Source: Natronomonas gomsonensis
Lineage (GTDB): Archaea; Halobacteriota; Halobacteria; Halobacteriales; Haloarculaceae
DNA: 64,000 nt
Assembly: GCF_024300825.1 (NCBI RefSeq)
Contig: NZ_CP101323.1
Coordinates: forward strand, 2,542,001 to 2,606,000
Direction of reading: 5' to 3'
This document shows, one piece after another, positions 60,452 through 64,000 of this stretch. Under the pieces are notes generated by a model, which searched no databases, had not been told where the DNA came from, and was given only the letters and a program-made list of their open reading frames with translations. The position numbers and the translations under genes were made by a program. The stretch's first letter is position 1. Each line of letters begins with the position of its first letter.

Positions 60452-60463
60452 CGAACGTGTTCG
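60452..60463. promoter_or_regulatory. CGAA-N4-TTCG palindrome upstream of nosZ
   Basis: CGAACGTGTTCG, within a 14-bp palindrome 60451-60464. It is 101 nt from the nosZ start. A GGTATATGCG box on the minus strand near 60408-60418 lies between, which would fit a leader of about 60 nt if the motif-to-transcription-start spacing of the other copies applies. Confidence 0.55.
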
Positions 60464-61187: not shown

Positions 61188-61199
61188 CGAACATGTTCG
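61188..61199. promoter_or_regulatory. CGAA-N4-TTCG palindrome between halocyanin and regulator genes
   Basis: CGAACATGTTCG, identical to the copy at 264. It is 68 nt from the halocyanin start (minus) and 91 nt from the Bat-type regulator start (plus), so it could serve both directions and allow autoregulation. Confidence 0.55.
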
Positions 61200-61289: not shown

Positions 61290-61979
61290 ATGCCACGTGC
61301 CGAACTCACCATTGACCTCCCGGAGCGAACCTGGATTCACCAGGTGACGACGACGCACGCCGACGCGACGTTTCGCGTGCTCGCGACGATGCCCACCGAC
61401 GACGTTGGGTTCGCACTCGTCGAGATTACTGCCCCCGAGCTGGAGCCGGTGATTCGCTCGATGGTCGAAAACCCTCAAATAAATGATGCCGAGCCGCTCC
61501 AGCAGTCCGCGGGCCGCGTCGTCGTCCAAATCGAGACGACCGCCCCCTTGTTGTTGCTGTCGGCGCAGGCCTCGGGCATTCCCATCGAACCGCCGGTGGT
61601 CATTCGGGAGGGCACCGCCGAAATCGAGGTTCGGGCCTCCCACGACCGACTATCGACCCTCGGCGAGGAACTCGACCGGTTCGGACTCTCCTACACCGTC
61701 GAGGCCGTCCACGAGGACACGGACCCCGACCGACTGCTCTCGAAGCGACAGGCCGAGTTACTGTTGACGGCCGTCGAGTGTGGCTACTACGACACGCCGC
61801 GGGAGTGTTCGCTCACCGAACTCGCCGACGCGGTGGGGCTCGCCAAATCGACGTGTAGCGAGACGCTCCACCGCGCCGAGGGGCGGGTCATCCGCCGGTT
61901 CACCGAACAGAACCTCGTCCCGCGAGGCGACATCGAGGCCCAGACCGACTCGCCGACGATGCTCTCGAACCGAACATAA
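61290..61979 (+). CDS. Bat-type helix-turn-helix regulator (HTH_10)
   Basis: A 229-residue protein. The N-terminal 150 residues form a beta-rich sensor-like domain; the C-terminal part has the bacterio-opsin-activator HTH: LLSKRQAELLLTAVECGYYD, then SLTELADAVGLAKSTCSETLHRAEGRVI. Three Cys occur inside or next to the HTH and none in a separate cluster, so it differs from NarO as I remember it. Its place inside the nos region suggests control of these genes. A GTG at 61227 is an alternative start. Confidence 0.8.
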   Translation: MPRAELTIDLPERTWIHQVTTTHADATFRVLATMPTDDVGFALVEITAPELEPVIRSMVENPQINDAEPLQQSAGRVVVQIETTAPLLLLSAQASGIPIEPPVVIREGTAEIEVRASHDRLSTLGEELDRFGLSYTVEAVHEDTDPDRLLSKRQAELLLTAVECGYYDTPRECSLTELADAVGLAKSTCSETLHRAEGRVIRRFTEQNLVPRGDIEAQTDSPTMLSNRT

Positions 61980-61982
61980 TCG
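61971..61982 (+). promoter_or_regulatory. Imperfect copy of the CGAA-N4-TTCG motif (CGAACATAATCG)
   Basis: One base differs from the consensus right half (ATCG for TTCG). It overlaps the last codons of the regulator gene and lies exactly 39 nt before the DUF2249 start at 62021, the same spacing as at 264 and on both sides of 62583. Confidence 0.45.
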
Positions 61983-62020: not shown

Positions 62021-62254
62021 ATGTCCGAGTCGACACTCGACGTTCGCGAACTCGCGCCGACCGAACGCCACCCGACGATTCACGAGGCCTTCGAGGAGTT
62101 AGACGCCGGCGAGACGCTGACGATACGCAACGACCACGACCCGAAGCCACTGTTCTACGAGTTCAGCGCGGAGGTAGAGGCCTTCGACGCCGAGGGCTAC
62201 GAGGTCGAACAGCGCGGTCCCCAAGAGTTCGTCGCTCGCCTGCCGAAAAAGTAG
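62021..62254 (+). CDS. DUF2249 domain protein
   Basis: A 77-residue protein that is nearly all DUF2249: LDVRELAPTERHPTIHEAFEELDAG, then LTIRNDHDPKPLFYEFSAE and the end EFVARLPKK. Such SirA-like-fold proteins cluster with denitrification and anaerobic genes in many microbes, function unknown. The ATG at 62021 is preferred over 62012 because of the motif spacing. Confidence 0.82.
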   Translation: MSESTLDVRELAPTERHPTIHEAFEELDAGETLTIRNDHDPKPLFYEFSAEVEAFDAEGYEVEQRGPQEFVARLPKK

Positions 62255-62268
62255 TCGCCGAGTCGCAC

Positions 62269-62544
62269 TCACCGCCAGATGGCGGTCACGACGCCGTCCT
62301 CGACGGTCACCGTGTCGTACTGCAACCTCCGGTCGTCGAGTTTGGGGTACAGCAACTTCGGCGCCCGGTCGTTCAACTGCAACAGCAGGTCGTCGCCGAG
62401 TTCCGGCACCGTTTCGAGCGTCCGCTGGAGCGGTTCCGGCGGCGGGAGTTCGCGCACATCGAGGAACTCCGTCGGTCGGTCCTCCGGGGCGGCAAGCGCT
62501 CGCCGCCACGCCGCTATCGGTGGGTCGGTCATCGTCCCGGACAT
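62269..62544 (-). CDS. DUF2249 domain protein, second copy
   Basis: A 91-residue protein. The N-terminal part is a short helix (PPIAAWRRALAAPEDRP), followed by DUF2249 starting FLDVRELPPPEPLQRTLETV and a short YDTVTVEDGVVTAIWR end. The LxLxxDHDPxPL core is replaced by LLLQLNDRAPKLLYP, so a His and Asp are lost. The start at 62544 (MSGTMTD) is supported by a motif copy 39 nt upstream; 62532 is an alternative. Confidence 0.72.
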   Translation of the reverse strand: MSGTMTDPPIAAWRRALAAPEDRPTEFLDVRELPPPEPLQRTLETVPELGDDLLLQLNDRAPKLLYPKLDDRRLQYDTVTVEDGVVTAIWR

Positions 62545-62582
62545 ACTCGAACCGTGGCGGGGGACGCTCCAGTGTGTTCTCC

Positions 62583-62594
62583 CGAACAGGTTCG
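62583..62594. promoter_or_regulatory. CGAA-N4-TTCG palindrome in divergent DUF2249/radical SAM promoter
   Basis: CGAACAGGTTCG. It lies 39 nt from the DUF2249 start on the minus strand and 39 nt from the radical SAM start on the plus strand, an exactly symmetric layout. No good TATA box is seen on either side. Confidence 0.6.
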
Positions 62595-62632
62595 GGACGG
62601 CACTCTCGGGGGCGTGAGACGAACGACGACGT

Positions 62633-63787
62633 ATGTCGAGGAAAGCGCCCACTTCCGAGGGACCGCCGGCCGCTCCGGTCGACACCGACGACCGCCCGTT
62701 CGTTCTCGTCTGGGAGTTGACTCAGGCGTGTGACCTCGCCTGCGACCACTGCCGGGCGTCCGCTCGCCCCCAGCGCCACCCCGAGGAGTTGACGACCGAG
62801 GAGGGCAAACGACTGCTCGATGCGGCCCGCCGCTTCGGCGACGGGCAACTGGTCGTCCTCTCGGGTGGTGACCCCATGGTTCGGGAGGACGTTCGGGACC
62901 TCGTCGCCTACGGCAGCGACGTCGGCCTCCGGATGACGCTCACCCCGAGCGGAACGGCGTCGCTGACGGCCGACCGAGTCGGTGAGGTGGCCGACGCTGG
63001 CCTCAAGCGGCTCGCGCTCAGCATCGACGGCCCCGCGGCCGTTCACGATACCTTCCGGGGGGAGGTGGGAAGTTTCGAGCGGACGAAAGCCGCCGCCGAA
63101 ACCGCCCGCGAGGTCGGCCTCCCCTTGCAAATCAACACGACCGTCTGTGCGGCGACCGTCGAGACGCTGCCGGCGGTTCGGGACATCGTCGCCGAGTTGG
63201 GCGCCGTCCTCTGGTCGGTGTTCTTCCTCGTCCCCGTCGGTCGGGGCCGTCGACTGGAGTCCGTCAGCCCCGACCGCGCCGAGTCGGTCATGGAGTGGCT
63301 CCACGCCGTCGCCGACGAGGCGCCGTTCGGCGTGAAGACGACCGAAGCACCACACTACCGCCGCGTCGGACTCCAACGGGAAGGTTCCGAACCGGCAGTG
63401 GGTGACGCCCCGACCGACACCGATGGCCTCGGCCGACGGTCGGGCATCGTCGCCGGCGACGGCTTCGCCTTCGTCTCCCACACCGGCGAGGTGTTCCCCT
63501 CGGGGTTCCTGCCGAAATCCGCCGGCAACGTCCGAGAGAGGGGGCTGGTCTCGACGTACCGGAGTGCGCCGCTGTTCGAGCGGCTTCGGGACCGCGACCG
63601 ACTGCGCGGGAAGTGTGGCGCCTGCCCCTACCGAGGTGTCTGTGGCGGGAGTCGTTCGCGGGCGTTCGCGACCACCGGCGACCCGCTCGAAAGCGATCCC
63701 CTGTGTCCGTACGTTCCCGAGGGGTACGACGGCCCGCTCCCGGACGGCGTCGCGGCGACCGATTCGGACGGGGGCGTTCCGTGGTGA
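62633..63787 (+). CDS. Radical SAM/SPASM protein
   Basis: A 384-residue protein. The radical SAM cluster Cys are CDLACDHC (C33, C37, C40), followed by GGDPMVREDV and the LSIDGPAAVHD barrel motifs. The C-terminal SPASM region has Cys residues in GKCGACPYRGVCGGSR and DPLCPY for extra Fe-S clusters. It resembles the TIGR04053-type group, related to haem-modifying AhbC/AhbD and peptide-modifying enzymes. The next gene looks like its peptide partner. Confidence 0.83.
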   Translation: MSRKAPTSEGPPAAPVDTDDRPFVLVWELTQACDLACDHCRASARPQRHPEELTTEEGKRLLDAARRFGDGQLVVLSGGDPMVREDVRDLVAYGSDVGLRMTLTPSGTASLTADRVGEVADAGLKRLALSIDGPAAVHDTFRGEVGSFERTKAAAETAREVGLPLQINTTVCAATVETLPAVRDIVAELGAVLWSVFFLVPVGRGRRLESVSPDRAESVMEWLHAVADEAPFGVKTTEAPHYRRVGLQREGSEPAVGDAPTDTDGLGRRSGIVAGDGFAFVSHTGEVFPSGFLPKSAGNVRERGLVSTYRSAPLFERLRDRDRLRGKCGACPYRGVCGGSRSRAFATTGDPLESDPLCPYVPEGYDGPLPDGVAATDSDGGVPW

Positions 63788-63857
63788 GGAGGGAACTCGG
63801 GGTTCGAATGCGGTCGTATCTTGGAACGGAGAACCGACTCCCGGCTATCGATTGTAG

Positions 63858-63869
63858 CGAACATCTTCG
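63858..63869 (+). promoter_or_regulatory. CGAA-N4-TTCG motif (CGAACATCTTCG)
   Basis: Fits the consensus half-sites and lies 38 nt before the ATG at 63907, within one base of the spacing at the other leaderless genes. Confidence 0.5.
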
Positions 63870-63906
63870 GGGAAATCGATTTGCCGACGGCGGACCGACG
63901 CCCGCC

Positions 63907-64000
63907 ATGGTCGAACGACCGGAACGAAGCCGAACCGAGGGCGGCGAACGGGCACCCACCGGCCGGGAGTGGGAGGTGTTCGTCCGGGACGCCGGCGACG
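63907..64000 (+). CDS. Probable radical-SAM-partnered peptide (Htur_1727-like), partial
   Basis: Only the first 31 codons are in the window: MVERPERSRTEGGERAPTGR, then EWEVFVRDAGD. The WEVFVR(D/E) start after a charged leader is what I remember of the haloarchaeal Htur_1727 family, named as a candidate ribosomally made, radical-SAM-modified peptide. Position right after a radical SAM/SPASM gene and the shared upstream motif agree. The C-terminus needed to confirm it is outside. Confidence 0.5.
   Translation, partial: MVERPERSRTEGGERAPTGREWEVFVRDAGD

Follow-up and report, generated by a model that had tools for sequence, protein, structure and literature searches.

A PaaB-like small gene paired with an AhbC-like radical SAM gene beside the nos genes of Natronomonas gomsonensis, and its probable place in anaerobic haem synthesis

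The window analysed here is a stretch of 64,000 nt of the Natronomonas gomsonensis genome (contig NZ_CP101323.1, positions 2,542,001 to 2,606,000). A first-pass annotation had read its right-hand end as a radical SAM gene followed by the gene of a candidate modified peptide, both under the operator of the nos genes. The small gene has its ATG at 63907 and runs over the window end; as the contig continues, its stop could be placed at 64200. The features are listed below in window coordinates, those above 64000 lying past the window end.

61290-61979, plus strand: regulator gene of the HTH_10 (bacterioopsin-activator) type, PF04967 58 bits, with the motif upstream at 61188-61199
61971-61982: operator with one mismatch, CGAACATAATCG, 38 nt before the ATG of the DUF2249 gene at 62021
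62021-62254, plus strand: DUF2249 gene, PF10006 87 bits
62269-62544, minus strand: DUF2249 gene, PF10006 43 bits, divergent from rSAM1, with its ATG at 62544
62583-62594, no strand: exact operator CGAACAGGTTCG, common to the minus-strand DUF2249 gene and the plus-strand rSAM1, 38 nt from each ATG
62633-63787, plus strand: rSAM1, 384 aa, a TIGR04053 radical SAM/SPASM protein, AhbD-like (haem b synthase)
63858-63869, no strand: exact operator CGAACATCTTCG, 37 nt before the small gene
63907-64200, plus strand (window part 63907-64000; L005:5907-6200): small PaaB-like protein gene, TIGR04031 (Htur_1727 family), 97 aa
64202-65413, plus strand (L005:6202-7413), beyond the window: rSAM2, TIGR04347, an AhbC-like radical SAM/SPASM gene with a GTG start, downstream partner of the small gene

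The genes annotated between 62269 and 64000 are real, although this range also covers the oppositely transcribed DUF2249 gene at 62269-62544. Reading beyond 64000, as had been proposed, gave an ORF of 97 aa and no large unrelated protein, since the frame ends at 64200. Because the window stops inside the small gene, rSAM2, which starts two bases after the small gene ends, was out of sight in the first reading. Further on, at 65465-66646 (L005:7465-8646), lies the gene of a membrane-type protein of 393 residues, for which neither Pfam (over cut-off) nor NCBIfam gave a match; relatives of it are found within 10 kb of haem genes in several Natrinema-type loci.

The window contains 11 exact CGAA-N4-TTCG sites, compared to 2.97 +/- 1.84 in shuffled sequences, and none of 100 shuffles reached 11. 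One exact site belongs to nosZ (60452-60463), which bears out the proposal of an operator shared with the nos genes. At the opposite end of the window, positions 264-275 (CGAACATGTTCG) are identical to the nos promoter motif of Haloferax mediterranei. Sites at 38-39 nt had been described for both genes and for the two DUF2249 genes; they are exact for rSAM1 (38 nt), the small gene (37 nt) and the divergent DUF2249 gene (38 nt), whereas that of the other DUF2249 gene has one mismatch. Of 80 relatives of the small gene, 39 have an exact site in the 200 nt before the start, versus 74 of 1064 (7%) other genes of the same loci (Fisher p 4e-21, a value that overstates independence as the loci are related), and the distance from operator to small gene was constant within clades. 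The small gene, with a motif upstream that is commoner than in other genes, is a putative member of this regulon, of which the HTH_10 gene is a candidate regulator. In H. mediterranei, the nos and nor promoters were less active when the motif was mutated (PMC10062603), and for H. volcanii the motif has been reported ahead of ahbD (PMC5746218). Anaerobic expression of the locus, as first suggested, is judged likely.

The presence of a radical SAM gene with intact CxxxCxxC and SPASM cysteines was confirmed. rSAM1 has the sequence CDLACDHC and, at the C-terminus, the CxxCx5CGG of the SPASM domain, and scored 469.1 bits against TIGR04053 (cut-off 395). Against the NCBI equivalog model of AhbD, TIGR04545, it reached 321 bits, below the cut-off of 500, and this model had no match above cut-off in the whole genome. 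It shares 38-41% identity with AhbD-like proteins and about 30% with AhbC, and in the tree rSAM1 branched with AhbD-like methanogen-type proteins with moderate support (90/75; the tree omits one AhbD candidate, L161, owing to a stop codon inside the stretch used). An orthologue in Haloferax larsenii, 68% identical, lies in a locus with the order DUF2249, rSAM, halocyanin, nor-type oxidase, regulators and multicopper oxidase (nirK), which is like the published neighbourhood of HVO_2144. From neighbourhood and identity, rSAM1 is the apparent orthologue of HVO_2144, whose deletion strongly impaired anaerobic growth, with rescue by protohaem that was partial in denitrification and full in DMSO respiration (PMC5746218). 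Grouping with AhbD and not with AhbC, and having an apparent orthologue with a haem synthase phenotype, rSAM1 is predicted to have AhbD activity. No mention of Htur_1727 or TIGR04053 was found in the literature searched. A TIGR04053 protein 50% identical to rSAM1 is encoded on a plasmid of Thermus thermophilus JL-18, between nitrite reductase and cytochrome c genes of a denitrification cluster (L138:10342-13601), where it may serve for haem d1 rather than haem b.

rSAM2 scored 664 bits against TIGR04347 (cut-off 525), a family named "pseudo-SAM/SPASM". The motif gives this label no support, as CxxxCxxC was kept in 78 of 78 rSAM2 members checked. Its score with the AhbC model (NCBI equivalog TIGR04546) was 400 bits, below the cut-off of 650, yet the protein was placed in a clade with TIGR04546 AhbC proteins with 99/98 support, and was 43-44% identical to AhbC of Halobacteriota genomes as against 31-35% to AhbD-like proteins. 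The rSAM2 of a Haloferax-like genome, 63% identical to that of N. gomsonensis, gave 46-47% with AhbC, in agreement with the 47% reported for HVO_1121 (PMC8305020). The AhbC grouping together with the conserved cysteines suggests that rSAM2 would have AhbC activity in haloarchaea. Two genomes of one genus (G004 and G005, genus g16) have a further AhbC-like match of 350-360 bits, away from the TIGR04031 pair.

The partner of the small gene was sought in 80 named haloarchaeal loci that contain it. The small gene was directly upstream of a TIGR04347 gene in 77 of them, and in 70 of these 77 adjacent pairs its stop codon overlapped the next start. rSAM1 was present in 38 of the 80 loci and absent from 42, being divergent and adjacent in 32. 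Co-occurrence was then counted by hand over the 292 genomes of the class from the best-E columns, the sums being equal to the over-cut-off tallies. TIGR04031 and TIGR04347 were both present in 170 genomes, 12 had only TIGR04031 and 3 only TIGR04347 (phi 0.89), so that 170 of 173 TIGR04347 genomes also carry TIGR04031. For TIGR04031 and TIGR04053, phi was 0.60, with 15 genomes having the first without the second and 39 the second without the first. Mirror-tree distances did not tell the partners apart, as all three correlated at 0.81-0.85. On the basis of the co-occurrence counts and gene order, the small protein as rSAM1's own was dropped as the main reading: the conserved partner of the small gene is rSAM2, not rSAM1.

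Several exceptions were looked at individually. In G206, only 91 bases separate the start of rSAM2 from a contig end, and the apparent absence of the upstream gene may be just an effect of this break. In Halorientalis regularis, the small gene is beside nirK and rSAM2 is kept on another contig, which indicates that co-occurrence outlasts the loss of linkage. Three Halorientalis loci (L057, L061 and L065) have a TIGR04031 gene with no adjoining TIGR04347; in L057 and L061 it comes after a nirK-like gene with the operator at 37 nt, and in L057 a DUF2249 gene is next. Finally, in L044 and L163, from two of the 12 genomes with TIGR04031 but not TIGR04347, the small gene adjoins rSAM1 alone.

Two other explanations have to be weighed against these data. 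One is that the small protein serves denitrification or respiration as an accessory unrelated to haem, and that it neighbours the AhbC-like gene through the shared regulon alone. The region is indeed a denitrification cluster, and the small gene between nirK and a DUF2249 gene in Halorientalis, with its operator at 37 nt, would fit. The stop/start overlaps and the near-complete co-occurrence with TIGR04347 are nevertheless far tighter than shared regulation needs, and we consider this explanation very improbable. According to the other, the protein serves the anaerobic haem arm as a whole, as a scaffold or a regulator, either acting with AhbD (rSAM1) or bridging AhbC and AhbD so that iron-coproporphyrin passes from one to the other. 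It can draw on the dimeric nature of PaaB, which binds and bridges two partner subunits (PMC4498308), on the loci where rSAM1 is divergent and adjacent, and on L044 and L163. It does not sit well with the 15 and 39 genomes in which TIGR04031 and TIGR04053 go separately, nor with the many loci that lack rSAM1, and appears unlikely, if slightly less so than the first.

The family link of the small protein given in the first-pass annotation proved correct: TIGR04031 gave 107.4 bits over model positions 1-71 (cut-off 57.2). The protein also matched the PaaB domain of Pfam, PF06243, with 34.5 bits (gathering threshold 27), as did 40 of 40 aligned relatives. When a profile of the family was compared to the PDB, only PaaB chains were recovered (3egr, E 8.7e-8; 4iit_B, E 3.1e-7). 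In an AlphaFold model of a Natronomonas relative, residues 20-75 form a confidently predicted core (pLDDT about 90), and the best structural match of the model was again PaaB, with a probability of 1.00 and a TM score of 0.77 by target; a second structural comparison gave Z 8.5 for PaaB 3egr versus 6.7 for the next match. With Foldseek, nothing was found at E < 0.001, PaaB being best at 2.2e-3, so that the fold assignment leans jointly on sequence profile and structure. Among TIGR04031 members, conservation follows the fold core, with an invariant Trp and Cys in a W-x-C-P motif present in 89 of 89 sequences read, and the C-terminal tail is variable, acidic and 11 to 85 residues long. A conserved fold followed by such a tail is unlike a leader-plus-core precursor. 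From profile and model, the small protein is best described as a folded PaaB-domain protein and not as a leader-plus-core peptide.

The small protein shares its domain and fold with PaaB, the bridging subunit of phenylacetyl-CoA epoxidase, and is distinct from it. Its score with the PaaB equivalog TIGR02157 was 25.4 bits, far below the cut-off of 85.45, and no paaA or paaC candidate was seen among the genes read around it. A true PaaB candidate lies elsewhere in the genome in a paa-like cluster, and has WVVP where TIGR04031 members have WxCP with the invariant Cys. The phenylacetate enzyme's own PaaB was thus rejected as an identity for the small protein.

A further possibility, in line with the NCBI name "Htur_1727 family rSAM-partnered candidate RiPP", is that a radical SAM enzyme modifies the TIGR04031 protein and that the product works in anaerobic cells. 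The strict coupling to a SPASM enzyme and the modifiable invariant Trp and Cys speak in its favour. A RiPP precursor is expected to have a short leader, a conserved C-terminal core and no stable globular domain; the small protein, with a PaaB domain, a conserved fold core and a variable tail, does not answer to this description. Moreover, the enzyme to which it is coupled groups with AhbC, which acts on tetrapyrroles, and the neighbouring genes that were read included none recognisable as a peptidase or an exporter. This possibility therefore has little chance of being right: the family model is matched well, and the modified peptide implied by its name is unsupported. The short ORF as a modified peptide of rSAM1, the central proposal of the first-pass annotation, is not supported, given the PaaB fold, the conserved neighbour being rSAM2, and the grouping of both enzymes with haem-pathway radical SAM enzymes. 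This grouping is largely the outcome, a haem pathway enzyme, that the annotation itself had named as speaking against a peptide.

As to the haem pathway, a search of the genome with the AhbD model recovered only rSAM1, rSAM2 and a MoaA-like protein, and rSAM1 and rSAM2 are the only AhbC/D-like genes. AhbA/B-type and ChdC-type homologues are present. rSAM1 and rSAM2 most likely belong to a haem branch that makes haem when oxygen is absent, beside denitrification genes; because both score below the NCBI AhbD and AhbC cut-offs, we describe them as working like AhbD and AhbC. In Methanosarcina barkeri, AhbC converts didecarboxysiroheme to iron-coproporphyrin III, from which AhbD makes haem, and AhbC makes Fe-coproporphyrin in E. 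coli without a TIGR04031-like partner (PMC3942049). In the non-haloarchaeal loci read, the surroundings of AhbC/D yielded no TIGR04031 relative. We consider it fairly probable that this locus represents the anaerobic arm of the alternative (Ahb) route to haem, co-regulated with denitrification and equipped with a haloarchaeal PaaB-like AhbC accessory.

The following mechanism is proposed, on the basis of the M. barkeri reactions and the bridging role of PaaB. Upon anaerobiosis, the AhbD-like and AhbC-like enzymes and the PaaB-like accessory would be induced together through the operator common with the nos genes. Acting as AhbC, rSAM2 would strip 12,18-didecarboxysiroheme of its two acetate side chains, which yields iron-coproporphyrin III, and rSAM1, acting as AhbD, would turn this into haem b by radical oxidative decarboxylation; the haem made would go to the respiratory chain while denitrification runs. 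The TIGR04031 protein would be an accessory of rSAM2, probably co-made by coupled translation, and most likely a small AhbC-binding adaptor, as PaaB bridges PaaA and PaaC; its invariant, family-specific Cys may touch iron or tetrapyrrole. The accessory may act as an adaptor, a stabiliser or a tetrapyrrole holder. The two loci without rSAM2, and an M. barkeri AhbC that needs no such partner in E. coli, imply that the accessory role is not universal, and it may concern the whole haem arm. More tentatively, and with the odds against it, a PaaB-fold protein may have been recruited in haloarchaea as a dedicated AhbC subunit that holds or passes iron-coproporphyrin III via the invariant Cys. We know of no counterpart of such a tetrapyrrole-holding subunit in haem synthesis. 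In a variant of this idea, rSAM2 may modify the folded PaaB-like protein and thereby enable it to hold or pass the tetrapyrrole.

Haloferax volcanii likewise has two radical SAM/SPASM enzymes in the same branch, ahbD (HVO_2144) and ahbC (HVO_1121), with ahbD beside nirK/nor and CGAA-N4-TTCG upstream. The difference is in the arrangement: in N. gomsonensis the AhbD-like, AhbC-like and small genes are adjacent and next to the nos genes, whereas in the Haloferax-like genome G113 the TIGR04053 gene is on one contig and the small gene-rSAM2 pair on another. The published alternative haem pathway of Haloferax does not include the small gene. Another small protein, of the CGCGG family TIGR03995 (putative rSAM-modified RiPP) and unrelated in sequence, is found beside TIGR04053. 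Its gene is stop/start adjacent to the AhbD-like TIGR04053 gene in a Haloarcula-like genome (L135:8187-9566) and directly precedes it in Halomarina (L139:15538-17028); the N. gomsonensis copy is unlinked, 0.7 Mb away. Each haem radical SAM enzyme can thus have its own small neighbour.

AhbA/B-type proteins, with four PF17805 domains, were present in 19 of 26 sampled haloarchaeal genomes without TIGR04347 over cut-off; TIGR04053 is likewise missing from these 19 (G003, G010, G014, G015, G019, G022, G026, G032, G036, G060, G068, G070, G156, G159, G183, G229, G238, G252 and G277). As AhbA/B is kept there without an AhbC-like enzyme, another route past the step after AhbAB should exist, perhaps through an oxygen-using enzyme.

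In our reading, a family annotated as candidate modified peptides is better seen as one of folded proteins that assist anaerobic haem synthesis. If this is true, experiments would turn to haem biochemistry instead of the hunt for a peptide, in a group that has genetically tractable members.
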